Source: Tistrella mobilis KA081020-065 (GTDB taxonomy: Bacteria > Pseudomonadota > Alphaproteobacteria > Tistrellales > Tistrellaceae). Taken from it: a stretch of DNA of 64,000 nucleotides. Below are positions 17,585 through 34,491 of the stretch, in pieces. Under the pieces are notes generated by a model, which worked only from the letters and a program-made list of their open reading frames with translations, did not search any database and was not told the DNA's origin. Numbering within the stretch: the stretch's first letter is position 1; every line of letters begins with the position of its first letter. Location of the stretch: assembly GCF_000264455.2 (NCBI RefSeq), contig NC_017958.1, forward strand, positions 1,059,001 through 1,123,000, given 5' to 3'. Position numbers and translations under genes: made by a program.

Positions 17585-17791
17585 CGCCGAGGTGATCGTG
17601 GTCGACCGCCCTCGTCCACCGTCGTGCCGGTATTGGTGTCGACCTTCGGCGCGGCGTTGACCTCGATCGTGCGCTCGAACGCCACACTCGTCTGCGTATC
17701 CGTGTCGCCGCTGTCGTCGGTGGCAACGATCGACACCACACGGTCGCCGCCCGGCATCGTCGACGACGCGCCGGTGTAGAGGAAGGCGAGC
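17413..17791 (-). repeat. Direct repeat copy B, near-identical to 11311-11690
   Basis: Partner of copy A. It carries the single-base deletion between 17605 and 17606: copy A reads tcgaaccgcc where copy B reads tcgaccgcc. The deletion breaks the reading frame of the giant gene at this point. Confidence 0.85.
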
Positions 17792-20700
17792 CCCTGAAGC
17801 ACCGTCTGGTAGTCGGCAACCGAGGCCGTGCCCGAGAGCGTGTACGTGCCAGCACCTCCATTGAAGGTGTAGCTGATGCCATGGTCGTTGGCGTAATTCG
17901 CCGCAGGCACGAACAGGCCCATATAGTCAGACGCACCACCAGGACGGGTGGTGAAGGTCACCACGACACTGGTCAGATTGGCCGAATCGACATCGCTCAG
18001 CGCCGCGGAGCCGACAACCGCCACAGCCGCACCGCCCGCTGTATAGACCGGCGAGTCCGACAGGTCGGTCACGACCGGCGCGTCGTTCACCGCGGTCACG
18101 TCGAGCGTGATCGTGGCACTGTCGGTCTTCGCACCGCCGGGGCCGGTATTGCCGCCGTCATCGACGGTCACGGTCAGCGTCACATCGGCGGTCGCATTCG
18201 CCGCCGTGGTGTAGCCGACGCCGCTGGCGGCGATGAAGGCATTGATCGCGGTCACCGTGCCGGTCAGCGTCAGACTGGTCGCCGTGCCGCCGACCACAAC
18301 ACCCGACCCGCTGGTCGCGGACAGGGTCCCGGTGAGGACGTCCAGCGTGACCGTCACATCGCCAGTCCCGGCATCGACATCACTGATCGAGATGCCGGTG
18401 AGCGCGGTTTCCACGTCTTCGGTCACATCGATCGTGGCCGGTGCCGTAATCTCCGGCGCGTCGTTCACCGCCGACACCGCCAGCGTCACCGTCGCCGTGT
18501 CGGTCTTCGCCCCGCCGGACCCCGTATTGCCGCCATCATCGATATCGACGGTCAGGGTCACGTCGCCGCTGGCATTGGCGACCGGCGTGAAGGTCAGCGC
18601 ACTGCCCGTGATGAAGGCGTTGATGTCGGCCACCGTGCCGGTCAGCGTCAGCGCGGTCGCCGTGCCACCCACCGTGACGTCGGCGGTGCTGGTCGCGGCC
18701 AGTTCACCCTCACCCACCGTGAAGGTCACCGTCACTTCGCCGGTGCCGGCATCGGCATCACTGATCGAAATGCCGGTGAGCGCAGTCTCGGTGTCTTCGG
18801 TCACGTCGATCGACGCAGGCGCCGTGATTTCGGGCGCGTCGTTCACGGCCGTTACGGTGATCGCGAAGGTCTGACTGCTGACGGTGTGGTTGGTCGTATC
18901 CGTCACCGAGAAGCCGAAGCTGCCCGACGTGGTTTCCGAGCCGTCATGCTCGTAGGTCAGCAGCCCGTCGTCGATGTCCTTCTGGGTAAAGGTGTCATTC
19001 ACCGACAGCGCAGTACCGTTGCGCTTCAGCGTGCCCGCGGCCGGCGCCGTGGTCAGGGTATAGGTGACATCGGCCGGATCGGTGTCTTCGGTATCCGACG
19101 ACGACAGCATCGCCGAGGTGATGGTGGTGGAGCCACCCTCGTCCAGCGTCGTGCCGGTGTTGGTGTCGACCTTCGGCGGGGCATCGACCTCGACCGTGCG
19201 TTCGAAGGCGGCGCTGGCCTGGGTCGCACTGTCGCCGCTGTCATCCGTCGCGACGATCGAGACCACACGGTCGCCGCCGGGCATGGAGGCAGCGGCGCCG
19301 GTATAGGCATAGACCACGCCCCGCAGCACGGTCTGATATTGGGCGACCGAGGCCGTGCCCGAAAGGGTCAGCGTGCCCGTGGCGTTGTTGTAGGCGACGT
19401 TGATGCCGTAGTTACTTGCATCGTCCGCCCCCGTGGTCGACATGGCGATACGATCCGACGTCCCGCCCGGGCGGGTGGTCAGGGTCAGGACCACGCTGGT
19501 CAGATTGCCGGAGTCGACGTCGACGATCGTAGCGGATTCGGCCACCGCCACCGGCGAGCCGCCGGCACTGAAGAGCGGCGATGCCGAAGTATCGTTCACC
19601 ACCGGCGCATCATTCACCGGCGTCGTGCTGACGGTGAAGGTATGCTGCACCGAGTCCGAATAGTTTGCGGACGACTGCTTCAGCGTGAAGGTCAGGGTGC
19701 CGGCAGTTTCCCCGCCGTCATGCTGGAAGGTGACGAGCCCGTCGTCGATATCCTGCTGGGTAAAGGTCCCGTTGGTCGACAGCGTGCTGCCGTTGAGCGA
19801 CACGGTCAGATGACTGAGCGCCGCCACCGTATAGATCAGATCCGCCCCGGTGGCGTAATCGTCGGAGGCTTCCAGCATCGCGGTGGTGATGCTGCCCGAT
19901 CCGCCCTCCGCAACCGTGGTGCCGGTATTGGTGGCGACCGTCGGGGTCTTGTCGATCTCGATCGTCAGATCGAAGGTGCCGACCTGATCATTGGCATCGG
20001 TGACGGTATAGCGGATGGTGCGGTCGGTCGTATCGACAGTGGCCCCCGACGACGTGTTCTTGTACTCGACGTTGCGGAGAGCCTCCTGATAGGTATTGAG
20101 CGACGCCGTGCCGGTGAAGGTCAGCGTTTTGGTGTACGTATCATACGAGATGGTGATACCAGCATAGGTTCCCGCAATGCGCGGACGCTCCGCGGTATCG
20201 TCCGGGTCATCGACCAGCTGCACCGTCGCCGATTTAATCATCGCCGTGTCGTCGATGAGGAACAGGTCCGGTGCGAACTGCGCATAGCTGCTATTGCCTG
20301 AATAGGCACCAGGGGTATAGACGAAGGTGTCGGCCGAAATCGCCGGCGGATCGTCGTCCAGGCTGGTGACGGCGACGCCGCTGCCGATCAGCGCGTCCGA
20401 GGTGGCGCCGTCGGCATCGGTGACGGTGACGCGGAGGATGCGCGAGCCGGCGGCATCGGGGGTATAGGCCGATCCGGTATTGCCCCAGGTGGGGGCGTCG
20501 GAGGTGGACGAATAGGTGACCGTCCGCAGCGCCGCCTGCATCTGCGCCACGGTGCCGCTGCCGGTCAGCGTCAGGACGAGGAAGCCGCCTTCCATTGCCA
20601 GGCTGGCACTATAGGGCCCGGGCGAGGTGATCGCGAGCACGTCGCCGTCCTTGGGGTTGGAGATCCAGACCTTCGCCGAGGTGATCAGGTCGCCGTCGTC

Positions 20701-23145
20701 GTCGGCGACCGTGATACCGGGCAACGCGACGGTCGGGGCGTTGCCTTCGGTCCAGGACACCGTCTGCGAGCCGCCAAGCACCGGGGTTGTGTCGTTCACC
20801 AGCTCGACCGCACCGATATCGATGGCACTGCCCGAAATGCGGGTCGCGCCGGTCTGGTCGGTGGCGGGCTGGCCGGTGATCGAGGCATTGCCGGCATCGA
20901 TCGCCGAGCTGCCGGTGCCCGGCTTCATCGTCTGGGTATAGCCGCCATTATCCGCCAGCGCCCCCAGATTGGGATCGGTGGTCTTGTCGGTGCCGGCGCT
21001 GGTCCAGCCGTTATTGGCAAGACTGTTGCCGTAATAGATGTTCCAGCCGACATTGGTCGTAGTGCCGCCGGTGACGTTCACGCCCCGGCCGGTGTTGTTG
21101 GCCAGAATCGTATGGCTGACGCTGACCGAGCCGCCATAGGAATCGATGGTACCTTGATAGGTGGCATTCGTCGCGCTGTTGCCCGAGAAGGTGCTGTGCG
21201 CCACGGTAAGCGCCGAGGAATTCTCGATCGCACCACCATAAGTTGCCGAATTACCCGAAAAGGTAGAGTTCACCACCGAGGTGGTGCTGTTGGTGCCGAG
21301 CATCGCGATCGCACCGCCACTTCCCGAACTGGCGGTATTCCGATCGAAGGTCGAGCGGACAATCTGGAGGTCGATCCGCCCAGAGCCGCCGCTATAAATG
21401 GCACCGCCGTTGCCGTTCGTCGCATTGGCTGTGTTCTGCGTGAAGGTGCTGTCGGTGATGAAGGCTTCGGACGCCGTCGCCGTGTCCGCGAGGTCGAGAG
21501 CGCCGCCCCCAGTGCTGCCGCTTGTCGCATCGTTGCTTGTGAAGGTCGACCGGTCGATCGTGGTCGAGCCGCCGCCGGTCCGGGCAGATATTGCCCCCCC
21601 CGCCGCAGTCGTGTTGTTGGTAAAGCTGCTATCCGCTACGGAAAAAGTTATGTTGCCGGAGGTATTTCCCTCCACGCGGATCGCACCACCGGCATTCGTC
21701 GCACTGTTCTGATCGAAACTGCTGTCAGCGACGTTCAGCGTGGCGCCGGCCGCACTGGTCTGATAGATCGCACCGCCCTGGGTGGTCGCGGTGTTGGTGG
21801 TGAACTGGCCGGTGACCGTGTGGATGAAATTGCCGCCGGAAATATAAATCGCGCCACCGGCGCCGCTGGTCGCCTGGTTGTCGACGAAGCTGTTGGTGCC
21901 GGTCATCGCCAGCTGGCCGCCGGCCATATAGACGGCACCGCCCTCCGTGGCCGTCAGATTGTTCATGGTGATGTCGGTCAGCGTCAGCGTGTCCGAGCCG
22001 GAGGCGGTGAAATTGATGCCGGCGCCGCCGCCCGAGGTCCTGGTCGCATTCTCGATCTGCAGCCGCGCAAAGGTGACCGTGGCATCCGTGACGGTGAACA
22101 CGCTGCCATTGGTCAGGCCGGCCGCATCCAGCACCCGGGTGGTGGTGTCGTCCGAACGGATCAGCACATTGTCGGTGATGGCGCTGAAGCCCGCAGAGAC
22201 CGTGAGATTGGCGGTGATGTCGATCTGGTCGGTGCCGACCGCGGTATTGGCATTGATGATCGCGGTTTCCAGCTGGGCCGCCGTGCCGGCGGTGAAGGTC
22301 GCCATCAGCCCGTCATAGCCGGCGCGGGTGTCTTCGGTCACCGCGATCGAGGTCTCGACCCGGCCGATCGAAACCTCCAGATCCCAGTCGCCGAAACGGC
22401 CGCCGCCATTGGCGGCGACGCTGCCGGTGGCATCGTCCGAGGCGGCGACATCGGCGCCGGTCAGCTCTGCCAGCCGGCCCAGAAAGGCCAGGCCGTCGCT
22501 GCCACCGGCGACATCGCAGCCATAAAGCAGGATGTCGCCATCCTCGGCCAGGCCGGCGCCGATCACCGCCAGGTCGCCGGCCCGGTCGTCGATATTCCTG
22601 TCCGAGAGGGTCGAAGATCCCAGCCAGATTTCGCCGACACTGCCTTCGGAAATGATATGGACGGCATCGACCGCCCCCGACTGTTCGGCCATCCAGTCGG
22701 CGATCTGTTCCAGCCCGTCGCGGCCGGCATCCAGCACCACGATTTCGACGTCGTCGGCCAGACCCGCCGCCAGGGTCTGCCAGTCGGTGACACGGGTATC
22801 GATGAAGGCGACCTCGCGACGGTCACCCGCCGCCGGAGCCGCCGTCACATCCGATCCGTCATCGCCACCCTGGGCGGCGGTTTCGACCAGAGCCGTGCCG
22901 TCATGAGCATCGGCCGGATGGCCGGCATCGGTGCCCCCGCCGTCGGCGGCGGTATCTGGGTGCAGTTCCTGCGCGGCATCCTGGGCCGCCTGGTCCTGCA
23001 GCGCCTCTGCCGCGGTGGCGACACCGGCGGCATCGAACATCATCCGTGGTTCAAGCGCCTGGGCCAGCGCCCCCCGCCGCCCCGGCCGGCGCGGCCCGAT
23101 GGTCTGACGGCCGGCATGATCTCCCCGACGACGAAAGCGGCGCAT
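17527..23145 (-). CDS. Giant surface protein, N-terminal reading frame: LEPR motif, DUF4347, beta-helix, cadherin-like
   Basis: The start at 23145 is preceded by a GGGGGA ribosome-binding site. Residues 31-40 read LEPRMMFDAA, a short N-terminal motif seen on large DUF4347/cadherin-type proteins. Residues of about 108-275 are a DUF4347 domain (VEIVVLDAGRDG, HIISEG, DILLYGCDVAGG). About 276-765 is a right-handed beta-helix with GGAIY/FTxN repeats like Pmp or choice-of-anchor-Q proteins, closing with GSSAIDAGN. The rest is cadherin/CSPG-like units. Translation leaves the correct frame at 17606, adds about 28 Arg/Pro-rich residues and stops at 17527. The in-frame continuation starts exactly where ORF 644-17584 begins, so the two were one gene. 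There is no signal peptide. Function by family: a non-fimbrial adhesin, probably exported by a type I-like route. Confidence 0.85.
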   Translation of the reverse strand: MRRFRRRGDHAGRQTIGPRRPGRRGALAQALEPRMMFDAAGVATAAEALQDQAAQDAAQELHPDTAADGGGTDAGHPADAHDGTALVETAAQGGDDGSDVTAAPAAGDRREVAFIDTRVTDWQTLAAGLADDVEIVVLDAGRDGLEQIADWMAEQSGAVDAVHIISEGSVGEIWLGSSTLSDRNIDDRAGDLAVIGAGLAEDGDILLYGCDVAGGSDGLAFLGRLAELTGADVAASDDATGSVAANGGGRFGDWDLEVSIGRVETSIAVTEDTRAGYDGLMATFTAGTAAQLETAIINANTAVGTDQIDITANLTVSAGFSAITDNVLIRSDDTTTRVLDAAGLTNGSVFTVTDATVTFARLQIENATRTSGGGAGINFTASGSDTLTLTDITMNNLTATEGGAVYMAGGQLAMTGTNSFVDNQATSGAGGAIYISGGNFIHTVTGQFTTNTATTQGGAIYQTSAAGATLNVADSSFDQNSATNAGGAIRVEGNTSGNITFSVADSSFTNNTTAAGGAISARTGGGSTTIDRSTFTSNDATSGSTGGGALDLADTATASEAFITDSTFTQNTANATNGNGGAIYSGGSGRIDLQIVRSTFDRNTASSGSGGAIAMLGTNSTTSVVNSTFSGNSATYGGAIENSSALTVAHSTFSGNSATNATYQGTIDSYGGSVSVSHTILANNTGRGVNVTGGTTTNVGWNIYYGNSLANNGWTSAGTDKTTDPNLGALADNGGYTQTMKPGTGSSAIDAGNASITGQPATDQTGATRISGSAIDIGAVELVNDTTPVLGGSQTVSWTEGNAPTVALPGITVADDDGDLITSAKVWISNPKDGDVLAITSPGPYSASLAMEGGFLVLTLTGSGTVAQMQAALRTVTYSSTSDAPTWGNTGSAYTPDAAGSRILRVTVTDADGATSDALIGSGVAVTSLDDDPPAISADTFVYTPGAYSGNSSYAQFAPDLFLIDDTAMIKSATVQLVDDPDDTAERPRIAGTYAGITISYDTYTKTLTFTGTASLNTYQEALRNVEYKNTSSGATVDTTDRTIRYTVTDANDQVGTFDLTIEIDKTPTVATNTGTTVAEGGSGSITTAMLEASDDYATGADLIYTVAALSHLTVSLNGSTLSTNGTFTQQDIDDGLVTFQHDGGETAGTLTFTLKQSSANYSDSVQHTFTVSTTPVNDAPVVNDTSASPLFSAGGSPVAVAESATIVDVDSGNLTSVVLTLTTRPGGTSDRIAMSTTGADDASNYGINVAYNNATGTLTLSGTASVAQYQTVLRGVVYAYTGAAASMPGGDRVVSIVATDDSGDSATQASAAFERTVEVDAPPKVDTNTGTTLDEGGSTTITSAMLSSSDTEDTDPADVTYTLTTAPAAGTLKRNGTALSVNDTFTQKDIDDGLLTYEHDGSETTSGSFGFSVTDTTNHTVSSQTFAITVTAVNDAPEITAPASIDVTEDTETALTGISISDADAGTGEVTVTFTVGEGELAATSTADVTVGGTATALTLTGTVADINAFITGSALTFTPVANASGDVTLTVDIDDGGNTGSGGAKTDTATVTLAVSAVNDAPEITAPATIDVTEDVETALTGISISDVDAGTGDVTVTLDVLTGTLSATSGSGVVVGGTATSLTLTGTVTAINAFIAASGVGYTTAANATADVTLTVTVDDGGNTGPGGAKTDSATITLDVTAVNDAPVVTDLSDSPVYTAGGAAVAVVGSAALSDVDSANLTSVVVTFTTRPGGASDYMGLFVPAANYANDHGISYTFNGGAGTYTLSGTASVADYQTVLQGLAFLYTGASSTMPGGDRVVSIVATDDSGDTDTQTSVAFERTIEVNAAPKVDTNTGTTVDEGGRPRSPRRCCRLPTARIRIRRMSPTR

Positions 23146-23622
23146 GATACCCGTCCCCCGAAACCCCGTGACGACCGGGCGACATGATCTCCACCCCCGG
23201 TCTGACTGTCATTCCCGCGGCGCCGGCGGTTCTTCGTCACGAAGTGCCGCATATCGCAACGATACACCTGTCCAGCCGGACGCAGCGTACCTTCGTCGGG
23301 TTTTCGTTAACCTAGCTGAACCTTACTGACCCGAAAAGCGGCTTTCGGGGCGTGCGCCCGGCGAAGCGGTGCTCCAGAAGATTGATTCGGCGCGTTTTTC
23401 AACGATCCCAAGCATTTGAGCTATATCAACGGCCATTAACCTCGCCCTGACATCACGGGCAAGACTCCTGTCGCAAACCGTGCGACATTAATCACGCACG
23501 GCAACCGCCAAGCGAAACGGCGGGAATGCGCCGCAGATGCATGCAATCCAGGCTGGTGCGGCCAGGCTGGTGCGGGGCTGCATCCCGCGGGGTCTGCCGC
23601 CGGTCAACCATCGGGATGTGGG
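23146..23622. other. Divergent intergenic region between giant protein and DUF6916/tail-collar cluster
   Basis: No credible gene is present in this 477-bp stretch, which must hold the promoters of both divergent units. A perfect 6+1+6 inverted repeat (CTTCGT-C-ACGAAG) lies at 23232-23244, about 90 bp upstream of the giant gene start, and could be an operator or a leader hairpin. The stretch is richer in A+T than its surroundings, notably near 23290-23450. I could not assign convincing -35/-10 pairs. Confidence 0.5.
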
Positions 23623-23946
23623 ATGTTCGAGAACTTCACCTTTGAAACCTTCGCGCCGCATGTCGGCACCGAATTCCATGTGCGCCTGCCCCAGGGCAAT
23701 CTGCCGCTGACCCTGGTTTCCGCCCAGCCCGGTATCCAGGCCATGTTGACCGGCCAGCGCCGCCTGGGCTTCAGCCTGATCTTCCGCGGCCCCCCCCAGA
23801 TCTATCTGCCGGCCAACAGCTACGACATCGCCCATCCCCGGCTGGGGCTGCTGAAGATGATGTTCATCTGCCCGGTGATCGCGCCGGTCGATCCGTCGAC
23901 CGGGCGGCCGGCGCCCGGCAATCACTACGAAGCGATTTTCAACTGA
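23623..23946 (+). CDS. DUF6916 family protein
   Basis: A 107-residue soluble protein with no signal peptide or membrane segment. It resembles the DUF6916 family, small beta-rich proteins of unknown function often encoded beside phage-tail-collar-domain proteins. Visible features are the N-terminal MFENFTFETFAPHVGTEF segment and a conserved central RRLGFSLIFRGP region. It opens a plus-strand cluster, 109 bp ahead of the first collar gene, and is divergent from the giant surface protein. The co-occurrence suggests a shared assembly or surface role, but no biochemical function can be assigned. The family call is from memory of the sequence pattern. Confidence 0.65.
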   Translation: MFENFTFETFAPHVGTEFHVRLPQGNLPLTLVSAQPGIQAMLTGQRRLGFSLIFRGPPQIYLPANSYDIAHPRLGLLKMMFICPVIAPVDPSTGRPAPGNHYEAIFN

Positions 23947-24055
23947 AGCCTGCATGTGCCACCGGCTGCGGCCCGGCCGGGCGACCGGATCGCCACGTCG
24001 CGACGACAGCCATGTCGACAATCAAGACGGAACAGGACGAGGACGGAGACCGGAT

Positions 24056-24649
24056 ATGGATGCACCCTTCATCGCCAGCATCGTGACCTGGATGCCGGAT
24101 TTCGCCCCCAAGGGCTGGGCTTTCTGCCAGGGGCAGATCCTGTCGATCGCCCAGAACCAGGCGGTATTCGCGCTGATCGGCACCACCTATGGCGGCAACG
24201 GCACCACCACTTTCGCCCTGCCCGACCTGCGCAGCCGGATCCCGATCGGCGCGGGCAACGGGCCCGGCCTGTCGCCGGTCCGGCTGGGCGAAGCGGCCGG
24301 CGCCGAAACCCAGACCATGACCGATCAGACCCTGCCGGCCCATACCCATTTCGCCCTGCCCCAGCTGCACCCGGTGCTGCCGCTGTCGACCGCCCCGGCC
24401 ACGGCGCCCGATCCGGCCACCGGCGTGCTCGCCACCGGATCGGTCCGCATCGGCAGCGGCCCCACAGCCCAGACCTTCCCGGTGTCGAATTTCACCACCG
24501 CCCAGGCCAATGCCGTGCTGCCGGTCACCATACCGGAGGATCTGACCGCCACCCCCACCGGCAACTCCCAACCCTTTTCGATCATGCAGCCCTATACGGC
24601 GCTCAACTTCATCTTTGCGATGCAGGGCATCTTTCCGCCGCGCAGCTGA
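24056..24649 (+). CDS. Phage tail collar domain (microcystin-dependent-type) protein 1
   Basis: A 197-residue protein. Its N-terminal 60 residues carry the tail-collar signature: the GWAFCQGQILSI, GTTYGGNGTTTFALPDLR and PIGAG stretches. It ends with the paralogous ALNFIFAMQGIFPPRS tail. The start at 24056 is chosen because GGACGAGGACGGAG precedes it; an upstream in-frame ATG at 23954 would add residues with no family counterpart. Such bacterial collar proteins (MdpB-like) are short, lack other phage genes nearby and have no settled function. Extracellular or surface-associated roles are suspected. It is the first of three tandem copies that diverge mostly in the middle. Confidence 0.85.
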   Translation: MDAPFIASIVTWMPDFAPKGWAFCQGQILSIAQNQAVFALIGTTYGGNGTTTFALPDLRSRIPIGAGNGPGLSPVRLGEAAGAETQTMTDQTLPAHTHFALPQLHPVLPLSTAPATAPDPATGVLATGSVRIGSGPTAQTFPVSNFTTAQANAVLPVTIPEDLTATPTGNSQPFSIMQPYTALNFIFAMQGIFPPRS

Positions 24650-24749
24650 CCGGTTTCCGCCGCGCAGCCGGGCCGGCACCACCCCGGTCGCCATCCACGG
24701 GCCAGGTCGCCATCCACATGGTCTCCATCATCCATAAGGTTTCGGAAAG

Positions 24750-25343
24750 ATGACCCCCTATATCGGACTCTGCATGCATTGGGCGCCGGATTTCGCCCCC
24801 CGCAACTGGGCCTATTGCGCCAATCAGCTGATCGCGATCAGCCAGAACACCGCACTGTTTTCGCTGATCGGCACCACCTATGGCGGTAACGGCATCCAGA
24901 CCTTCGCCCTGCCCGATCTGCGCGGCCGCGCCGGCCTGGCCGCCGGCCGCTCGACCACCGGCACCACCTATGTCGAAGGCGAAATCGCCGGCACCGACCA
25001 GACCACTTTGCTGACCCCCAATATGCCGGCCCATACCCATGCGGTCAGCCCGGTCACCGGCACCCTGCCGGCCACCGCCACCCAGGCCGATACCAACGGG
25101 CCGGCCACCGGGCTCGCCTTCGGCATGGCGCACACCACCTTCGACGATAACGGCACCGAAGTATCTGTCCCGGTCAACGCCTATGCAGCCGGCCCGGCCG
25201 ATGTCACCTCGGCGACGGGGGCGTCCGGCGGCACGGTCACCTTCGGGGTGACCGGCCATACGGCCCAGACCCCGATCACCCAGCCCTATCTGGGCCTGAA
25301 CATCATCATCGCCATGTACGGCATCTTCCCGCCGCGCAGCTGA
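24750..25343 (+). CDS. Phage tail collar domain protein 2
   Basis: A 197-residue paralogue of the previous gene. Collar motifs are NWAYCANQLIAI, GTTYGGNGIQTFALPDLRGR and MPAHTHA; the C-terminus is LGLNIIIAMYGIFPPRS. A GGAAAG site precedes the ATG. It lies 100 bp after copy 1 and 31 bp before copy 3, consistent with one transcript. The central 90 residues (Thr/Ala/Gly-rich) differ strongly from the neighbours, as expected if the copies share a fold but bind different partners. Confidence 0.85.
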   Translation: MTPYIGLCMHWAPDFAPRNWAYCANQLIAISQNTALFSLIGTTYGGNGIQTFALPDLRGRAGLAAGRSTTGTTYVEGEIAGTDQTTLLTPNMPAHTHAVSPVTGTLPATATQADTNGPATGLAFGMAHTTFDDNGTEVSVPVNAYAAGPADVTSATGASGGTVTFGVTGHTAQTPITQPYLGLNIIIAMYGIFPPRS

Positions 25344-25374
25344 CCGGCCCCGACCCGAAAACAGGAGAGAACCG

Positions 25375-25974
25375 ATGGACGGAGTTTATCTGGGGGCCGT
25401 GTTCCTCTGGGCGCCGAGCTTTGCACCGCGCGGCTATGCCTTCTGCAACGGCCAATTGCTGTCGATCGCGCAGAACGACGCCCTGTTCGCCCTGATCGGC
25501 ACCACCTTCGGCGGCGACGGCCAGACCACCTTTGCCCTGCCCAACCTGATCGGCCGCACCCCCCTGGGCGCGGGCCAGGGGCCCGGCCTGTCGAACTATG
25601 CCCTGGGCCAGACCGGCGGCAGCGAGACCGTCACGCTGACCGGCAATAATCTGGCCCATCACACCCACACGGTTTCGGCAGATCTACAGGCCGCGATTCC
25701 GATCACCAGCACCGATGCAACCGAGGCCGAGCCTGCCCCCAACGTCATCCTGGGAACCGGGAATTTCGTGCAGACCAATGCGCCCGGCTCCCCCACCCGG
25801 CCCGCCAATCTGTTCGTCGCCAAGCAGGACCCGGAAGCGACCCTGCCGGTGCAGATGAACGGCCAGGTCGCCGTCGGCTCGTCGGGCATGAACGTCCCGG
25901 TCCAGATCATGCAGCCCTTCGCGGTGCTGCAATACATCACCCCGCTCTACGGCATTTATCCGCCGCGGGGCTGA
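25375..25974 (+). CDS. Phage tail collar domain protein 3
   Basis: A 199-residue collar-domain paralogue: GYAFCNGQLLSI, GTTFGGDGQTTFALPNLIGR, PLGAGQGPG, LAHHTHT, ending VLQYITPLYGIYPPRG. It has a good AGGAGAG site 8 bases before the ATG. It is the last intact member of the cluster; a T-rich terminator follows 29 bp after the stop. No signal peptide is visible in any of the three, so export, if any, must be by a non-Sec route. Confidence 0.85.
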   Translation: MDGVYLGAVFLWAPSFAPRGYAFCNGQLLSIAQNDALFALIGTTFGGDGQTTFALPNLIGRTPLGAGQGPGLSNYALGQTGGSETVTLTGNNLAHHTHTVSADLQAAIPITSTDATEAEPAPNVILGTGNFVQTNAPGSPTRPANLFVAKQDPEATLPVQMNGQVAVGSSGMNVPVQIMQPFAVLQYITPLYGIYPPRG

Positions 25975-26002
25975 CCGGGCGCCACACCGTCGACGACGCA
26001 TC

Positions 26003-26041
26003 AGGGGGCACGCGGAGACGATCCACGTGCCTCTTTTTTTG
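26003..26041 (+). terminator. Rho-independent terminator after tail-collar genes
   Basis: A GGCACG/CGTGCC stem (26007-26012 with 26026-26031) is followed directly by tct and an unbroken T-run to 26041. It closes the DUF6916/collar transcript and separates it from the decayed fourth copy. Confidence 0.75.
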
Positions 26042-26182
26042 TCCGTCGCGTGGCCATATGGCCATATTTTCGGCCGCGATCTATGTCCATTATGAACCGT
26101 ATAGTGACTGGCAAGGGTGATATGGGGTGATGCATGGCTCCCCCATTCCCCGCTCCCCACCCGTTAAGGAGGCGCCAGTTCA

Positions 26183-26622
26183 ATGCCCCTGCCCCTTGGA
26201 AGCATCCTCGCCTATGCCGGCACTGCCCTGCCGGATGGCTGGGCTTTTGCCCATGGCCAGATTCTGGCCATCACCGATCATCCCGATCTGTCGCGGTGAT
26301 CGGCACAACCTATGGCGGTGATGGTGTCGAAACCTTCGCATTGCCCGATCTGCGTGGCCGGCGCTGGACCGGCGCCGATGCCGCGACCCACCCGGTCGGC
26401 GGCGCTCTGGGCCGATGCCGCCCTGGCCGACACCGCCCTGGCCAATGCCGACATCACCGGCACGGCCCATGCCGGCCTTTCGGGTTCTGCCGTGCCGATG
26501 GCCGTTTCCTGGCCCCGGCGATCGAGGGTGGGCTGGCGGTTCTGCCGGCCGGTGGCGGGGTGCCGGTGCCGCTGGGCGCGCCCTGGCTGGCGGCCACCGC
26601 GATCATCCGCGCCACCCTCTGA
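26183..26622 (+). pseudogene. Decayed fourth tail-collar gene (multiple frameshifts)
   Basis: A strong AAGGAGG site precedes the ATG at 26183. Translation gives LPDGWAFAHGQILAI as in the intact copies, then hits TGA at 26297. The collar motif VIGTTYGGDGVETFALPDLRGR resumes at 26296 in another frame, as if one base were lost in a 'ctgttcgcggtg' context. The frame shifts again near 26405 (an Ala-rich segment, ADTALANADITGTAHAG) and back near 26500 (FLAPAIEGGLAV to the stop at 26622). At least three indels are needed. The product would be only about 145 residues even if repaired, shorter than its siblings. Confidence 0.75.
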
Positions 26623-26638
26623 CCGGCAACCCCAACGT

Positions 26639-26650
26639 CCCCCCCCCCCC
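26639..26650 (+). repeat. Homopolymeric C12 tract
   Basis: Twelve consecutive C residues lie 16 bp after the stop of the decayed collar gene. Tracts of this length are prone to slippage and to sequencing error. Confidence 0.9.
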
Positions 26651-27357
26651 GCCAGGCCATGCCCCGCCCGACGAGAACATAACGGTTTCGTCTTGCGCCG
26701 CAAAACCATCGGAACAAGGCGCGTACAGGCACAGAATCATACACGTTTTCGGCGTGTTTTCGGGGCAATCGGCATCGGAGCGGGGGCAAGTATCGAACAT
26801 TTTATTTAAATTTCCTTAAAGCGCCGGGCATCCCGTGTGTCAGACCTCACATGAAGCTGCACAATTCACAAGAACAAGAAACATGTCGTCGCACCATGCT
26901 GCATTGCAACATTTCCAAAAGGTAAACGCCCGCACCGCAACCGGCCGGATGCTGAGTGACATATCATCGCACTGTGATCGACAGCCGCAGACTGCAAGCT
27001 CCTGGGAGGCTTGATTTTCCTGTTATATTCCTAATATGTTCTTATTTTGGTTGTAATTACTCTCCTTTAGGTTGTAGTCGATTCGTATAAAGCAGGAACA
27101 TATCCGGAAAATAACGGCGTCATATCATGGTTAACGCCGCAGCCGCATGCGGTGATCAGACCGGCGCAGAATGCCGGGGCGATCGACCGGCCAGGGCCGG
27201 ACGGGCCCGGCTTCCGGTGAATGCGGTGCAATATTCGCCCATCCCGCCACACCTCCCCGCCCCACCCTTTCGGTCAGGGCTCGCCGGGGTTCTCCCGCCC
27301 GGATCGCCATGCCCCACCCTGGGCGCGAACATCATCACCCACACCATCGAAACGCGA
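26651..27357. other. Convergent intergenic spacer with AT-rich segment
   Basis: No supported gene is present. The part from about 26780 to 27120 is markedly richer in A+T than the rest of the window (for example ttatattcctaatatg near 27021), which suggests foreign or regulatory DNA. The open frames here have no ribosome-binding sites and look like shadows. Confidence 0.55.
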
Positions 27358-27386
27358 TGGACATCTCCGGGCAGGCACCCTATAGT
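27358..27386 (+). promoter_or_regulatory. Near-consensus sigma-70 promoter for an orphan transcript
   Basis: TGGACA (27358-27363) and TATAGT (27381-27386) match 5/6 positions each, with the ideal 17-bp spacing. No protein gene follows; a strong terminator lies about 150 bp downstream. Confidence 0.55.
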
Positions 27387-27390
27387 CAGG

Positions 27391-27546
27391 GTCGCAGCCT
27401 GGTCGTGCGATGGCGCGGGGGGATGTATGGGACGGAGGGCATGACGCGATGCCGCCGGCCCCACCGTACAGGTTTACCCGAACTTGTGTGGTGTAGATGC
27501 GACACCGACTTGAGCGCGGCGGACATGCGTCCTGCCGCGCTTTTTT
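27391..27546 (+). ncRNA. Candidate small RNA of about 155 nt
   Basis: The segment lies between a promoter (27358-27386) and a terminator (27513-27546). GTCGCA at 27391-27396 can pair with TGCGAC at 27498-27503, bringing the 5' end to just before the terminator hairpin. An internal hairpin GGCAT-GACGCG-ATGCC sits at 27438-27453. No open frame with a proper ribosome-binding site ends within it. I do not recognise an Rfam family. It is antisense to nothing and convergent with the M50 gene. Confidence 0.45.
27513..27546 (+). terminator. Rho-independent terminator
   Basis: AGCGCGGC-GGAC and GTCC-TGCCGCGCT pair around an ATGC loop with one bulge, followed by TTTTTT at 27541-27546. The orientation is plus, so it does not serve the minus-strand M50 gene ending at 27569. 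Confidence 0.75.
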
Positions 27547-27568
27547 CGTCGCCCCTCGGATGTGCTGA

Positions 27569-29761
27569 TCAGAAGCCGCTTTCGCGGATGGCGACGGCGA
27601 TCACCCGGCGCCACAGGCTGGCGGCGAAGCTTTCCGCCGGTGCGTCGATCCGCACCATGCCCCGCAGGGCCAGGGTCTGGCCTGCGGGCAGCCCGGCGCC
27701 GGCATCGGGTTCCAGCCACACCCGATAGACCGCGCCGCGCGGCACGGGGCGGCGTTCATGGTCCAGCTCGGTTGCGATCGGCCCGCCATTCTGGCTGGCC
27801 AGGGCCGGCTGATCCAGGGCATCCACCGCCGTCTCGGACACGGCGGTCACCACCACCGGCAGCGGGTCGCGCGCGGGGTCGTCGGTCACGAAGCGGCCGC
27901 GGGCGCCGACCTGCAGCCGCGGCAGATCCTCGCCCGACACATAGGCCTCGATCCGCCCGCCCTCGGCGGCGACCACCAGCCCCAGCACCCGGGCGGGGGA
28001 CACCCACAATCCCGGCATCAGATCGGCCGGCGGGTCGCGGAAGATGCCGTCCTGCGGCGCGCGCACCACCAGCCGGGCGCGCTCTGCCACCAGCCCGTCC
28101 AGCTCCGCCAGCCGGGCGGCCAGCCGCCCTTCCAGCACGCCCACCTCGGCGGCGGTGGCGGCGCTGGCGGCCTGGCGCTGGATCAGCCTCTGGGTCACGT
28201 CCAGCTCCAGGCGGATCATCTCGATCTTCCGGTCCAGATCGGGGTTGTCGAGCACCACCACCGGCTGGCCGGCGGTAACGCGCGCACCCGCCGCCACAGG
28301 CACCTCCACCACCCGTGCCGGCGCCGGCGGATGCAGCCGCGGGCTGGCCGATGCCTCCAGCATCGCCGGCAGGCCGATATTGCCCTGCCAGGGCACGAAG
28401 GCGAGCCCGATCAGCAGCGCCAGCACCGCCAGGCTGCGGGCCATGGCCCGGTTCATCCGCATCTCGTCCCTCGCCTTCCACCATTCGCCGATTTCGCGCA
28501 GCGCCGGCATCGCCAGGAACCAGCACACCTCCACCGCCGCCAGCATGATGCCCAGCACCTTGAAGAAGGCGTGATAGACCAGCACGGCGATGCCCAGGAA
28601 CAGGAAGAACCGCCAGATCCAGGCGCCATAGGCATAAAGCAGCACGGCGTGGCGGGTGCGCGGCGGCAGCACTTCCGGCGGCTCGCGCCCCAGGCCGAAC
28701 AGGGTTTCGCGCAGATGCCAGCGGGCCAGCGCGAAGCCGCGGCCCTGCAGGTTGCGCACGCCGATCAGATCCGACAGCAGGTAATAGCCGTCGAAGCGCA
28801 TCAGCGGGTTCAGATTGACCAGCAGGGTCATGAACCACGACACCGCCGCCAGAAAGAACACGGCGGATCGCGCGGGCCCGTCGGGCATCAGCGTCCACAG
28901 AATGGTGGCGATGGCGGCGATGCCCAGCTCCACCGCCATGCCCGCCGCCCCGATGATCAGTCGCCGGTGGCGTTCCGGCAGCCGCCAGGCATCGCTGACA
29001 TCGGTATAAAGCACCGGCATCATCACCAGCAGGGCGACCCCCATGGAATGCACCCGGCAGCCGAAGCGCTTGGCGGCCAGGGCATGGCCCATCTCGTGCA
29101 GCACCTTGGCGATGATCAGCGCAATACCGAACCAGACCGCCCCTTCAAGGGTCAGGAAGCTGGTGAAGGTGTGCAGGAACACATCCCATTGCCGCCCGAC
29201 CAGATAAAGCGCGATGGCGACCAGGGTGAGCAGGGTAAGCCCCGCCCCTTTGGAGAACATCATCCGGCCGAGCGGCGTCAGCCCGTCCAGCCACATATCG
29301 GGGCGGACCAGCGGCACGCGCACGAACAGATAATTGTGCAGCATCCAGGAAAAGGCGCTGCGCTTCGCGGCCTTGCGCTGGCGGGCATAGCTGCCGGTCA
29401 TCCCCGGCTCGTCGCCCGCGACCAGATTGTTGGCGATCAGGAAACGGGCCAGCTCGTCCACATCGCTCAGCTCCAGCGGCAGGCGAGAGGCGGCCATGGC
29501 CCGGGCCAGAACCCTGTCGGGCATGCCCTGATCCCAGGCGCCCAGCAGCGCCACCGCCTGGGGCGACAGGCTGTAATAGCGCCCGCGCGCCGGATCCAGA
29601 ATCGTCCAGCTGGGGCTGCCGTCCAGATCGGTGGGGCCCGGCAGCAGCTTCAGATCCTCGCGCAGCCGCGGCACCGGTTTGGCCTGCTGCTGGCCACCCG
29701 CGCCGCCCCCGAACGAGATGGTCGGCCCCCCCGGCGCGCTGCCCTGCACGGATGCGACCAT
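27569..29761 (-). CDS. PqqD-like / site-2 protease M50 / HlyD fusion protein
   Basis: A 730-residue membrane protein. Residues of about 30-115 look PqqD-like. The M50 core has HEMGH at 222-226 (zinc-binding HExxH) and NPLMRFDGYYLLSD at 318-331 (the second zinc-ligand motif), surrounded by several membrane segments. From about residue 455 it continues as a HlyD-type adaptor: lipoyl-like VPVAAGARVTAGQPVVVL, a coiled-coil, then a beta-barrel. The combination suggests an inner-membrane protease that also reaches into the periplasm. It is the last gene of a three-gene operon, 3 bp after the stop of the GAF-like/HlyD gene. By family it belongs to M50/HlyD proteins linked to exported large proteins or peptides; the substrate is unknown. 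The giant repeat protein or a small GG-leader protein are candidates by inference. Confidence 0.8.
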   Translation of the reverse strand: MVASVQGSAPGGPTISFGGGAGGQQQAKPVPRLREDLKLLPGPTDLDGSPSWTILDPARGRYYSLSPQAVALLGAWDQGMPDRVLARAMAASRLPLELSDVDELARFLIANNLVAGDEPGMTGSYARQRKAAKRSAFSWMLHNYLFVRVPLVRPDMWLDGLTPLGRMMFSKGAGLTLLTLVAIALYLVGRQWDVFLHTFTSFLTLEGAVWFGIALIIAKVLHEMGHALAAKRFGCRVHSMGVALLVMMPVLYTDVSDAWRLPERHRRLIIGAAGMAVELGIAAIATILWTLMPDGPARSAVFFLAAVSWFMTLLVNLNPLMRFDGYYLLSDLIGVRNLQGRGFALARWHLRETLFGLGREPPEVLPPRTRHAVLLYAYGAWIWRFFLFLGIAVLVYHAFFKVLGIMLAAVEVCWFLAMPALREIGEWWKARDEMRMNRAMARSLAVLALLIGLAFVPWQGNIGLPAMLEASASPRLHPPAPARVVEVPVAAGARVTAGQPVVVLDNPDLDRKIEMIRLELDVTQRLIQRQAASAATAAEVGVLEGRLAARLAELDGLVAERARLVVRAPQDGIFRDPPADLMPGLWVSPARVLGLVVAAEGGRIEAYVSGEDLPRLQVGARGRFVTDDPARDPLPVVVTAVSETAVDALDQPALASQNGGPIATELDHERRPVPRGAVYRVWLEPDAGAGLPAGQTLALRGMVRIDAPAESFAASLWRRVIAVAIRESGF

Positions 29762-29764
29762 GGC

Positions 29765-31330
29765 CTAGAACCCGGTATGCTGGCGCAGCGCCGCCAGCGG
29801 CCTGCGGAACAGATAGAAGGCCAGCGGCACATCCGCGCCATAGACCTTGGCGGTGCCGCGCAGCCCCACGCGGGGCAGGGCCTCGCCGGCGTCCTGGTCC
29901 AGCCGGGCCTTCAGCTCATAGGCCAGAATGCCCCCCGGGGTCTGTTCCGCCGTATAGCTCATGCTGGTCATCCGCCCGGCCACCGGCTCCAGCGGCCGGG
30001 CATCCAGGAACAGCTGCACCGGCGCGCCCGGCTCCAGCCGGATCGCCTCGCCCACCGGCAGTTCCACGCGGATCTCGGCCCGGGCCGGATCGGCGATGGT
30101 CATGATCCGCTGGCCGGTCTGCACCGGCCGGCCGATCCAGTCGTCGGCGCGGGTGAAGAGCACGATGCCCGGGCGTTCGGCACGGACCTCCACCCGGGCC
30201 AGGCGCTGTTCGGCATACTCCAGCTCCGCCTGGCGCAGCCGGGCGCGGGCTTCCAGCAGGGCGATCTGCGCGCCGGCATCGCGGTCGTCAAAGGCGCCCT
30301 GGCGCGCGCGGCGCAGTTCGGCCTCGGCGATTTCCAGCGTGCGGCGGGCCACTGCCACCTCGGCCTGAAGATTGGTCGGGTCCAGCCGCAGCAGCAGATC
30401 GCCGGCGTCGACCCGCTGGTTGGGCTGCACCTCGATCGCCTGCACCACCCCGTCCAGCGGCGAGGCGACGGTCGCCGGGTCGCTGGCCGACACCTCGGCC
30501 GGCGCCAGCACGCTCTGCGGCACCGGAATGAAACCGGCGGCAACGGCAGCCGCCACCAGCCCCAGCACCAGCCAGCGCGGCCTGGGCAGCCGCCGCCGGC
30601 CGGCACCACGGCCGGCCAGCGCCAGCCAGGCATGGGCATAGGCATCGGCCAGCTGGGCGGCCAGAACCTGATCGGCGGGGGCGAAACCGGTATCGCGGGC
30701 CAGCCACAGCCAGCCGCGCACATGGCCCTCGCGATCGGTCAGCGGGCAGAGCAGCGCATGGGGGGCGGCCAGCTCCGGCCAGGCCTCGGCCAGTTCCTGT
30801 GGCAGATCGGCGGGCGTCACCAGCCGCGGCTTCAGCAGCTCGGCCTCGGGCGCCGGCGCCGGCGTGGCGCCGGCCAGGGGTTGTGGCGCCGGTACAGGCG
30901 CAGGCGCCGCCTTCAGCGCCTTCATCTGGTCGCGATGGGCGGCGGCCAGATGGCCCAGCACCCGTTCCAGCCAGGTGACATAGGGCGCCGTGCGCTCCAC
31001 CCCCGGCACGTCCGACAGGGCGACGGGTTTCGGGCGGATCGCGCCCTCGGCCAGCGCCGCCTGGCGATAGGGCAGCAGACGGCGGGTTTCGTTGACGATC
31101 ACATAGCGCAGGCTTTGCACATCCGGCGCGCGCCGGGCGGCACGTTCCAGCGACAGCATGATCGAGAACAGGATCGCCGACCGGCCGCGCGCCGGATCGG
31201 CTGCCGCTCCCCCGGCTGCCGCTCCCCCGGCTGCCGCTCCCCCGGCTGCAGGTGCACCCGGCTTCGCCGCCGCGGCGGCCAGCTTCTGCAGATCGATCTT
31301 GGGCGGCTGCGGCCGGGGATCGGCGTTCAT
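29765..31330 (-). CDS. GAF-like N-terminal / HlyD-type membrane-fusion adaptor
   Basis: A 521-residue protein. An N-terminal low-complexity Ala/Gly/Pro stretch precedes a cytoplasmic GAF-like region (about 50-240, ending in the WLWLARDTGF segment). One membrane helix follows (WLVLGLVAAAVAAGFIPV, about 255), then a HlyD architecture: SPLDGVVQAIEVQPNQRVDAGDLL as the lipoyl half-motif, a coiled-coil (AEAELRRARQ through LRQAELEYAEQR), and a C-terminal barrel. It overlaps the upstream adaptor gene by 4 bp (start and stop in TCAT at 31327-31330), so the two are translationally coupled. The cytoplasmic GAF-like part suggests signal-responsive assembly with the M50/HlyD partner. No ABC ATPase is fused. 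Confidence 0.75.
   Translation of the reverse strand: MNADPRPQPPKIDLQKLAAAAAKPGAPAAGGAAAGGAAAGGAAADPARGRSAILFSIMLSLERAARRAPDVQSLRYVIVNETRRLLPYRQAALAEGAIRPKPVALSDVPGVERTAPYVTWLERVLGHLAAAHRDQMKALKAAPAPVPAPQPLAGATPAPAPEAELLKPRLVTPADLPQELAEAWPELAAPHALLCPLTDREGHVRGWLWLARDTGFAPADQVLAAQLADAYAHAWLALAGRGAGRRRLPRPRWLVLGLVAAAVAAGFIPVPQSVLAPAEVSASDPATVASPLDGVVQAIEVQPNQRVDAGDLLLRLDPTNLQAEVAVARRTLEIAEAELRRARQGAFDDRDAGAQIALLEARARLRQAELEYAEQRLARVEVRAERPGIVLFTRADDWIGRPVQTGQRIMTIADPARAEIRVELPVGEAIRLEPGAPVQLFLDARPLEPVAGRMTSMSYTAEQTPGGILAYELKARLDQDAGEALPRVGLRGTAKVYGADVPLAFYLFRRPLAALRQHTGF
31200..31244 (-). repeat. Three perfect 15-bp tandem repeats
   Basis: The unit gctgccgctcccccg occurs three times in a row, plus a partial fourth. 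It encodes repeated GGAAA in the N-terminal linker of the GAF-like/HlyD protein. Being a multiple of three, copy-number change would only alter linker length. Confidence 0.9.
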
Positions 31331-32289
31331 TTCGGCGTCCCTTGCGGTTTGGCCCCTTGCGGTTTGGCCTGCGGCACGGGCTCGCCTTCGGCGGGGCCGG
31401 CAGGCCGTGCCGCAGGGTCGAAGCGCGCCGTGCCGCTCATGCCCGGCAGCAGATCGGTCGGTTTCCCCTCGATCGCCGCCAGCACCGGCACGGTCTGCGA
31501 CACCTGATCGACCCGGGCACCGATGGCAGTGACCTGCGCCTTGACCGTGCCGCCGGTCTCGTCGACCGCGAAATCGAACGGCTGGCCGGGCACCAGCCAG
31601 GCCAGCCAGGTGGAGGGCACGATCAGCCGGATGCGCGGCAGCCCGTCCGAGACGATCGCCAGCAAATCGTCACCGGCGGCGACGCCTTCGGCCGGCTGTG
31701 CCAGGCGGCGCACCACCCGGCCGGCATAGGGTGCCTCGATCCGGCAGCGCTCCACCGTGGCGGAACTCAGCCGGATGGCGGCCGAGGCCTCGGCCAGCTT
31801 CGCCTCGGCCAGCTGCACGTCCAGCACGCCGATCGACTGAAGCTTCGCCAGGCTGCGGGCATTGTCGAGTGCGGCCTTGGCCCCGGCCGCCTGGGCGCGC
31901 GCCTGGGCCAGCTGGGCCTCGTAGAGCGTGCAGTCGAACCGCACCAGCAGGGCGCCCTTGGCAAAGTCCGCGCCTTCGGTCACCGGCAGATCGACGATCC
32001 GGCCGGCGATCTCGGCCGAAATCACCGCCTCCGCCGCCGGCTCCAGCACGCCGCGCGCGGCCTCGGGCGACGGCGCATCGGGACCCGTCTTCACCGGCCC
32101 CGGCACGGGCGCGGCCGACAGGATCGGCGGCAACTGGCGGGGCGCTGCGGTGGCATCGGCTCCCCCACCTGACGACAGGGGCGGCAGCCCGGTCTGTGCC
32201 GCCGCAAGGGTGGCCATCGTCACCAGAGCCGCCGCCATGGCGGCTCCGGTCACCACCCGACGGGCCCGCATCGCGTTCCGAAGCTGCAT
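31327..32289 (-). CDS. Periplasmic HlyD/RND-type adaptor subunit
   Basis: A 320-residue protein with a clear signal peptide (MRARRVVTGAAMAAALVTMATLAAAQ). The lipoyl half-motifs are VISAEIAGRIVDLPVTEGADFAKGALLVRFD and APYAGRVVRRLAQPAEGVAAGDDLL, flanking a hairpin of coiled-coil (LYEAQLAQARAQAAGAKAAL). A C-terminal barrel and a low-complexity QAKPQGAKPQG tail follow. It is the first gene of the operon with the GAF-like/HlyD and M50/HlyD genes. The system thus has three different adaptor modules but no visible ABC/RND pump or outer-membrane channel, so it must borrow them or work differently. Confidence 0.8.
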   Translation of the reverse strand: MQLRNAMRARRVVTGAAMAAALVTMATLAAAQTGLPPLSSGGGADATAAPRQLPPILSAAPVPGPVKTGPDAPSPEAARGVLEPAAEAVISAEIAGRIVDLPVTEGADFAKGALLVRFDCTLYEAQLAQARAQAAGAKAALDNARSLAKLQSIGVLDVQLAEAKLAEASAAIRLSSATVERCRIEAPYAGRVVRRLAQPAEGVAAGDDLLAIVSDGLPRIRLIVPSTWLAWLVPGQPFDFAVDETGGTVKAQVTAIGARVDQVSQTVPVLAAIEGKPTDLLPGMSGTARFDPAARPAGPAEGEPVPQAKPQGAKPQGTPK

Positions 32290-32396
32290 TCCCTCAACCG
32301 CCCCTGACTGTTATTCCGGCGCCGTCCCTGTCGCCCGCACGCCGGGTCAGCCTACGCCTGTTGGCGCAGGCGCGCCACGCCCCTCGGCCGCCATGG

Positions 32397-33302
32397 TCAC
32401 TTCGCGGGCCCGGCCTTGCGGCCGGCCATATGGGTCAGATAGGCCACGATATGGTCGATATCGGCATCGCTCAGCTCGTCGGCAGAGAAGGCCGGCATCA
32501 CCGATCCGGGCCAGCTGCGCACCGATTTCGTGTTGCGGATCAGCTGCTTCAGTGCCGCCGGCTGGAAGTACTCCGTGGGGTTCATCGGCAGGTTCAGATC
32601 CGGCCCCAGCTCGGCCGGCCCGGCACCGTTGATCTTGTGGCAGGCGGCGCACTGCACCGCGAAGACCTGCTCGCCCTTCCGCTCCGGCGCATCGGCCGGC
32701 AGCGTCTCCGCCACCCGCATCGGCGGGAAACGGTCCAGCAGCGGCACGGTGGCGGTGAAGCTCGCCACCTGATAGGGCCATTGCTCCTGAGTCACCCCGC
32801 TCGCCGCGGCATTGGTCCACACCACGTAGAACGGGCCCGGATCGGCATCCTTGTCGGGCAGGGTCGGCCAACCACCATCAGCGGTGGCGCCATCAGCCGT
32901 AGATAGCGCCAGCCAGGCCCGGGCGCGGTCGGGGCGGGTTTCCAGCACCAGGGCCGCCGGCAGCTGGGCGACGAACCCATCCAGCGCCGCCACCTCCAGA
33001 TGGTCGTCGGCCGCCAGGCCGTGATCGGCCAGGATCGGCGCCAGCGGTACCGCCTTGTAGCGCATGGGCCGGTGATACGAGACATCGTCCGGCACATCGA
33101 TCACGGTCAGGTCGGGCCGCTTCAGCAGGGCCTCGCGATCCAGCGAAAACACCCGGCCCTCGATCGCGAAGCTCACCGCCGGCACCTCGGCGGCGTTCAG
33201 CCCGGCTGCCATCGGCGGCAGGCTCACCAGAGCCAGCGCCACGGCGATCGCCGCGACACCCGCCCGCACGCGTCTCGTCACATGTGCCATCACATCACCC
33301 AT
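32397..33302 (-). CDS. Exported c-type cytochrome with N-terminal molybdopterin-oxidoreductase-like domain
   Basis: A 301-residue protein. The start at 33302 is chosen for its AAGGGG site 5 bases upstream; a longer open frame to 33704 has no family-like sequence. A signal peptide (RRVRAGVAAIAVALALVSLPPMAAG) is followed by a domain of about 140 residues (LLKRPDLTVIDVP, YKAVPLAPILADHG, FVAQLPAALVL) resembling the sulfite-oxidase-type substrate fold but too short to hold a complete cofactor site. The C-terminal third is a class I cytochrome c: CAACH heme site, MPAFSADELSDADIDHIVAYL with its axial Met. It is probably a periplasmic electron carrier. Its natural partner is not encoded nearby. Confidence 0.75.
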   Translation of the reverse strand: MGDVMAHVTRRVRAGVAAIAVALALVSLPPMAAGLNAAEVPAVSFAIEGRVFSLDREALLKRPDLTVIDVPDDVSYHRPMRYKAVPLAPILADHGLAADDHLEVAALDGFVAQLPAALVLETRPDRARAWLALSTADGATADGGWPTLPDKDADPGPFYVVWTNAAASGVTQEQWPYQVASFTATVPLLDRFPPMRVAETLPADAPERKGEQVFAVQCAACHKINGAGPAELGPDLNLPMNPTEYFQPAALKQLIRNTKSVRSWPGSVMPAFSADELSDADIDHIVAYLTHMAGRKAGPAK

Positions 33303-33537
33303 CACATCCCCTTTCCGGCCGTCGTCATCCCGTGCGACCGGTTGGGATGCAGTATGCACCAGTCCGGCTTTGTCGGCGCGTGGATTGAAGATCCTGCGTA
33401 AACGTCGGTGGATGCCGGTCCGGTGCCGGATCATGGACCCTTGCGGACGAAGCGCTGTACCTGGCCGCCGATCCCCGGCAAGCTTGGCGGACCATCTTTC
33501 TCCGCGCTGCGGACCCTGCGCCAGATCGGTTCCAACC

Positions 33538-34491
33538 ATGACCACCACCCCCAACCCGCCCGCCGGCCCGGAGCCGGTCGGAACGCAGTCGCTCGCGGCC
33601 TCCAACCCGTCGCTCGCCCCCAACCCGTCGCTCGACCGCCTGAAGGGCATCGGCCTGATGATCGTGGCGGTGGGCCAGTTCGTGGCCATGGACACCATCG
33701 CCAAGCTGCTCTCGGAAACCCAGCCGGTGCCGCAGCTGGTCTGGGCGCGCTATGGCTTCCATCTGCTGTGGATGCTGCCGCTGATCCCGGTTTTCGGGCT
33801 CCGGCGGATGATCTCCACCCGTGTGCCCGGCCGTCAGCTCGCCCGCTCGGCCCTGCTGATCTCGTCGACCGTCTTCGCCTATTTGGCCGTGCACCGCCTG
33901 CCGCTCACCCAGCTCTATGCAGTAAATTTCACGGCGCCGCTGATGGTGACCCTGATGTCGGGTCCGCTCCTCGGCGAAGCGATCGGCCCGAAGCGCTGGG
34001 CGGCGGTGCTGCTCGGCCTCGGCGGCGCGCTCATCGCCGTGCGCCCCGATCCGGGCAATCTCGATCCCGGCATTCTCTATGCCTTCGCCATGGCGCTCAG
34101 CTTCGCGGTCTATCAGATCATCACCCGCCAGATCTCGCCCTATGACGGGCCGCTGGTCGGGCTGTTCTATGCCGCCCTGTTCGGCTTCACGCTCACCTCG
34201 ATCGCGGTGCCGTTCTACTGGGCGCCGGTCGATGCCCGAACCTGGGTGATGATGGCGCTGCTCGGCCTGTTCGGCGCGCTCGGGCATCTTGCGCTGATCT
34301 CGGCGCTCCGCCTCGCTCCTGCCTCGCTGATCTCGCCCTTCAGCTATACCCAGCTGATCTGGGCGACCGCGGTCGGCTTCGTGATCTTCGGCCATCTGCC
34401 CGATCAGTGGACGCTGACCGGGGCCGCCATCGTGGTCGCGGCCGGGCTCTATCTCGCTTTCGGGGAACGGCTGCGCTTCCGTCGGCGTTGA
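33538..34491 (+). CDS. EamA/DMT-family transporter
   Basis: A 317-residue inner-membrane protein with about ten hydrophobic helices in two EamA repeats (GIGLMIVAVGQFVAMDTIAKLL and ILYAFAMALSFAVYQIITRQ begin the halves). Drug/metabolite-superfamily proteins of this size export small metabolites; the substrate cannot be told. The start at 33538 gives the usual length; the upstream frame would add 56 non-conserved residues. It is divergent from the cytochrome gene, with 235 bp between them, and 50 bp ahead of the M20 hydrolase, so exporter and hydrolase may be co-transcribed. Confidence 0.85.
   Translation: MTTTPNPPAGPEPVGTQSLAASNPSLAPNPSLDRLKGIGLMIVAVGQFVAMDTIAKLLSETQPVPQLVWARYGFHLLWMLPLIPVFGLRRMISTRVPGRQLARSALLISSTVFAYLAVHRLPLTQLYAVNFTAPLMVTLMSGPLLGEAIGPKRWAAVLLGLGGALIAVRPDPGNLDPGILYAFAMALSFAVYQIITRQISPYDGPLVGLFYAALFGFTLTSIAVPFYWAPVDARTWVMMALLGLFGALGHLALISALRLAPASLISPFSYTQLIWATAVGFVIFGHLPDQWTLTGAAIVVAAGLYLAFGERLRFRRR

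Follow-up and report, generated by a model that had tools for sequence, protein, structure and literature searches.

Genes and features at the locus

The window, that is, the whole stretch of 64,000 nucleotides of Tistrella mobilis KA081020-065 analysed here, carries on its + strand a compact unit bounded by a putative sigma-70-type promoter and an intrinsic terminator (Table 1). A gene of the opposite strand, 27569-29761 (-), converges on this unit and encodes an M50/HlyD protein according to Pfam. The surrounding region 17527-33704 encodes a large DUF4347/cadherin-like protein, a DUF6916 protein, three collar-domain proteins, two HlyD proteins, an M50/HlyD protein and a cytochrome c domain protein, and is probably a surface-protein secretion locus.

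Several other elements are seen in this part of the window. A short tandem repeat (about GGCCAGGCTGGTGC) lies at 23545-23580, upstream of the DUF6916 gene; counted by eye, it has two copies here, two in genome G001 and four in genome G058. After the three longer collar genes, a partial collar-domain frame at 26134-26622 (+) matches positions 33-55 of the 57 in the Pfam profile. Its counterpart stretch differs, by eye, in the other Tistrella genomes, and the frame looks like a decaying further collar copy. The 43-codon frame 26883-27014 (+) contains the blocks HAA-Q--QKVN and LSDISSHCD, which recur in the two other Tistrella genomes, in one of them as judged by eye, and its only Pfam match is below threshold (DUF5330, E 0.0068). 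It may be a small peptide gene beside the export genes or a conserved non-coding element. The longest frame in the window's frame listing, open over 5646 codons, occupies 644-17584 (-).

Table 1. Features of the candidate small RNA gene, in window coordinates
Feature	Position	Strand	Basis
Conserved upstream patch	27311-27330	+	18/20 identical to the more distant genome; limits chosen after alignment
Inverted repeat CCATCG-AAACG-CGATGG overlapping the -35 box, putative operator	27344-27360	.	Identical in 3/3 genomes
-35 element TGGACA	27358-27363	+	Promoter scans; same in 3/3 Tistrella genomes
-10 element TATAGT	27381-27386	+	Promoter scans; same in 3/3 Tistrella genomes
Predicted small RNA, about 153-158 nt, start within 27389-27394	27389-27546	+	Conservation and fold; start deduced from the -10 box
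Closing stem, 5' arm TCGCA, pairing with 27498-27502	27392-27396	+	Predicted fold
Internal 14-bp hairpin, loop ACCC	27462-27493	+	Predicted fold
Closing stem, 3' arm TGCGA	27498-27502	+	Predicted fold
Linker CACCGACTTG ahead of the terminator, largely unpaired in the predicted fold	27503-27512	+	Unchanged in 3/3 genomes
Intrinsic terminator: hairpin 27513-27541 and T6 27541-27546	27513-27546	+	Fold and scan; more distant genome differs in the loop only

Promoter, terminator and predicted fold

The -35 and -10 hexamers are 17 bp apart and agree with the consensus at 10 of 12 positions, and they are followed about 150 bp later by a GC-rich, bulged hairpin (AGCGCGGCGGACATGCGTCCTGCCGCGCT) with its run of six T. 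Both elements had been pointed out in an earlier note made from the sequence alone, and both are present as described. A promoter and terminator scan of 1.4 kb found this promoter and no other, against a shuffle mean of 0.2, and did not list the terminator at 27546, probably owing to the bulge in its stem. To appreciate how rare such an arrangement is, both strands of the 64000 bases were scanned for promoters (at least 4/6 matches per hexamer and 10/12 in total, spacing 16-18), for terminators (a fold of at most -14 kcal/mol followed by at least five T) and for units with a terminator 60-350 bases downstream of a promoter. With these cut-offs, fixed after the finding was already known, the scan gave a single promoter, TGGACA-17-TATAGT, three strong terminators and one unit, whereas 60 first-order Markov windows of the same composition had a mean of 0.47 promoters and 0.48 terminators each and not a single unit between them. 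The locus thus displays two features of an intergenic sRNA gene: its own promoter, recognized from the sequence only and unique in the window, and its own intrinsic terminator, which serves no gene of the + strand.

The terminator had been described as used by no gene and the unit as an orphan. The first statement holds for the + strand; on the - strand, the gene 27569-29761 ends 22 bp past the T run. Likewise, the unit is an orphan in that no same-strand gene follows it, but it stands in close convergence with 27569-29761. No same-strand gene lies between the unit and its convergent neighbour, so the unit does not look like a leader or a riboswitch. A sigma-54 promoter was also considered, by eye against the consensus; the GG-N10-GC spacing is present, the remainder is poor, and this reading was set aside.

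The inverted repeat across the -35 box is a possible operator for the sRNA promoter. An exact search for it in two genomes found no site in either besides this one. With up to two mismatches it gives 46 + 31 matches in the T. mobilis genome against 10 + 14 for the backwards pattern, a control that does not preserve dinucleotide content, and 37 + 37 against 12 + 8 in the other genome (G001). Counted together, ACCATCG-N5-CGATGGA-like sites of the 27343-27361 type thus number 77 versus 24 here and 74 versus 20 in G001. This surplus of loose copies may be a composition effect or a real, wider set of sites.

The 155-nt strand 27392-27546 folds with a predicted energy of -74.7 kcal/mol (z = -3.08; 1 of 200 shuffles as good). 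Removal of the terminator brings z to -1.16, with 25 of 200 shuffles as good, which is unremarkable and indicates that the terminator supplies most of the excess stability. The fold model consists of a 5-bp closing stem, two weaker arms, the 14-bp hairpin, the linker and the terminator stem. The pairing proposed earlier between the first bases of the RNA and those just before the terminator is possible, GGGTCGCA (27389-27396) with TGCGACACC (27498-27506) and one mismatch, and the internal hairpin that had been noticed is located at 27462-27493.

Conservation and range of the unit

The unit is present in all three Tistrella genomes examined, that of the T. mobilis window included. When the window is compared with the more distant genome, in regions whose limits were chosen after the alignment had been seen, the RNA with its terminator (27389-27546) has 152 identical positions, 6 different and 1 gapped, and the promoter region 27331-27388 has 51 identical and 7 different. 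On the other hand, the spacer 27015-27310 has 141 identical, 120 different and 35 gapped, so that 141 of its 261 aligned positions are identical. Both the RNA (6/158 versus 120/261 differing; Fisher p = 4e-23) and the promoter region (7/58 versus 120/261; p = 6e-7) differ clearly less than the spacer, and the same is seen in the same-species genome, in which 1 of 158 RNA positions differs versus 30 of 304 in the spacer 27015-27330 (p = 4e-5). Promoter, stems and terminator are kept in both other Tistrella genomes, which supports the small-RNA reading of the earlier note.

High identity alone is, however, not specific to the RNA, since the convergent gene also matches the more distant genome without any difference over its last 112 bases. 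The conservation close to the terminator could thus belong partly to the side of the convergent gene. The telling signal is that conservation within non-coding DNA rises sharply at about 27311, a little ahead of the promoter. Conservation above that of the neighbouring non-coding DNA, here in three genomes of one genus, is a further feature of an sRNA gene.

Do the few changes respect the predicted fold? In the RNAalifold consensus, which was built from the same two copies that are compared, namely those of the window and of the more distant genome, two of the six substitutions alter one side of a pair and leave it intact, and the remaining four fall, like the insertion, at unpaired positions. 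For instance, an A to G change in the 27462-27493 hairpin of the more distant genome turns an A-U pair into G-U. No pair is changed on both sides between these two copies. Folded separately, they share 49 pairs of 52 and 54. When 1000 random mutants carrying the same types of change were folded, 94 preserved the structure no worse than the more distant copy does, which makes fold conservation weak evidence. Collectively, the sequence changes are compatible with the predicted fold but do not prove it.

The unit had been said to match no known family, and indeed no Rfam 15 family reaches its gathering threshold or rises above chance at the locus; in the whole window, only two tRNAs reach threshold. 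A DNA search of 58 genomes, in which the next-nearest relatives share only the class, gave two matches, both in Tistrella, and neither DNA search nor covariance model found further copies in the T. mobilis genome. The covariance model, made from two copies, was run with stricter filters that lose weak matches against 385 genomes of the class, evenly drawn from a larger group, and returned the three Tistrella genomes and one match at E 0.09. The DNA of this fourth match reads as coding for a TrmFO-like protein, and it was taken as chance. The covariance search in relatives suggested by the earlier note therefore recovered the RNA in Tistrella genomes, with no credible match elsewhere among the 385 class genomes. 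Exact core patterns, which are blind to diverged copies, had no match in general genome contigs and viral contigs, and no match to the unit was found in a plasmid collection; near relatives are possibly absent from these sets. From these searches, the known range of the predicted RNA is one genus.

Proposed function, alternatives and related systems

Taken together, these features indicate that the stretch is very probably the gene for a small regulatory RNA. Our best reading, which we consider rather probable, is a stand-alone gene with a sigma-70-type promoter, an RNA of about 155 nt and an intrinsic terminator, restricted to the genus and most likely acting in trans. Observed are the two signals and how rare they are in the window, the conservation and the frameshift in the longer open frames; transcription, trans action, Hfq dependence and the operator are the parts that we infer. 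The promoter (27358-27386) would drive an RNA of about 155 nt ending at 27546, which would fold as a closed multi-branch domain followed by the terminator stem. With assistance of Hfq, a conserved and exposed part of the RNA, for instance the linker 27503-27512, would pair in trans with at least one mRNA, and a repressor or activator bound at the -35 inverted repeat could set the timing of RNA production. Hfq is encoded in both Tistrella genomes searched, and the own promoter, the terminator, the conserved linker and the Hfq-encoding genome make a trans-acting regulator the best explanation.

Alternatively, the RNA could act in cis on the M50/HlyD gene 27569-29761 (-), as an antisense to the 3' end of a read-through mRNA that is trimmed or protected, or by blocking the oncoming RNA polymerase. 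The two are separated by the 22 bp mentioned above and adjoin each other in all three Tistrella genomes. Furthermore, on the - strand the hairpin has no following T run, so that no intrinsic terminator is apparent for the convergent gene at this place and its transcription may continue into the RNA gene. However, plain antisense action alone does not account for conservation across the whole RNA and the promoter repeat, and we regard a cis role as unlikely.

Transcription could also start further upstream, in which case the RNA would be processed from a longer transcript that might, for example, originate at the small frame 26883-27014. Position 27388, an A in the window, is a G in both other Tistrella genomes, and with this G the end-to-end inverted repeat grows to AGTCGGGGTCGCA / TGCGACACCGACT, with 12 of 13 pairs and three bases inside the -10 box. 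Since a sigma-70 transcript should not have begun within the -10 box, the extension may be due to chance or to a different transcript start. A start further upstream is very unlikely, as the spacer 27015-27310 is poorly conserved relative to the more distant genome, whereas the -35 and -10 boxes and the repeat are unchanged.

It is likewise very doubtful that the unit represents a new genus-restricted RNA family dedicated to the surrounding, probable surface-protein export locus; the 5' end of the RNA would then pair with the leader of the upstream collar genes and its 3' end would oppose the convergent export mRNA. If this were true, one RNA would balance the cargo and the exporter of the locus. 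More generally, a target search for the proposed trans-acting RNA among leaders of the window gave no convincing candidate, which speaks against the preferred reading. Four short RNA segments were compared with 22 frame starts of the window, some of them spurious. The best pairing, 27389-27402 with 23962-23974, has -27.3 kcal/mol (0.0007 of 1500 random 75-base stretches as good) and came from frame start 23954, which is probably not the real one. The paired segment sits 82-94 bases upstream of the likely start 24056 of a collar gene, and 5 of 2000 random 140-base stretches equal it. With 11 successive pairs possible between the RNA 5' end and the leader of this gene, the pairing is a weak lead and is not significant, given the many comparisons made. 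Positions 23962-23974 are unchanged in all three genomes, as is nearly all of the surrounding block, and the RNA 5' end is itself paired in the predicted fold. The next-best pairing joins 27422-27430 and start 42186 (0.0033). When 27389-27515 was paired with 11 nearby leaders, between 72 and 300 of 300 shuffles gave duplex energies as good or better, and for the leader of 24056 all 300 did.

A small peptide, encoded by a dual-function RNA or by a purely coding locus, is highly improbable. Closed frames of 28 and 15 codons (ATG) and of 9 codons (TTG) exist in the window RNA, and additional frames stay open beyond the terminator. Translation of the window copy and of the more distant genome shows that both ATG frames shift at the insertion in the latter, which is absent from the same-species genome, and that two substitutions before it alter residues of the 28-codon frame. 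Where a frame begins past the insertion, as the 9-codon TTG frame does, it reads the same in both copies, and the underlying DNA is the same too. By eye, no clear ribosome-binding site is found at a good distance. The frames that span the insertion shift, and the very short later ones, which may still be coding, are unchanged; peptide coding is disfavoured and the locus is probably non-coding.

The preferred reading, a trans-acting sRNA, adds for Tistrella a well-delimited sRNA gene candidate with a defined start, a defined end and a possible operator, and leaves the understanding of how such RNAs work unchanged; a search of an open-access collection found no paper on a Tistrella small RNA or a Tistrella mobilis sRNA. 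Among known RNAs, a diverged housekeeping RNA such as 6S (RF00013) is hardly credible: the length near 155 nt and the pairing of the 5' and 3' ends are similar, but its covariance model has no match at the locus up to E 10, and both genomes searched have a 6S candidate at another place (45.2 bits on another contig of the T. mobilis genome, below the 46.4 cut-off, and 47.3 bits, above it, in the other Tistrella genome). Of all Rfam families scanned against 27380-27550, the Burkholderia sRNA ncS54 (RF02871) has the lowest E-value, its 14.5-bit match covering the terminator-bearing 3' part, 27479-27548; with a gathering score of 43 and E 0.54, this is a chance-level match. The closest known systems are the trans-encoded intergenic sRNAs of Alphaproteobacteria, such as those of Sinorhizobium meliloti surveyed in PMC3927594. 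The Tistrella candidate belongs to another genus and has no Rfam match. According to that survey, most of its sRNA family models do not extend beyond Sinorhizobium or the family to which it belongs, and a range as narrow as one genus is, by this comparison, usual for such RNAs.
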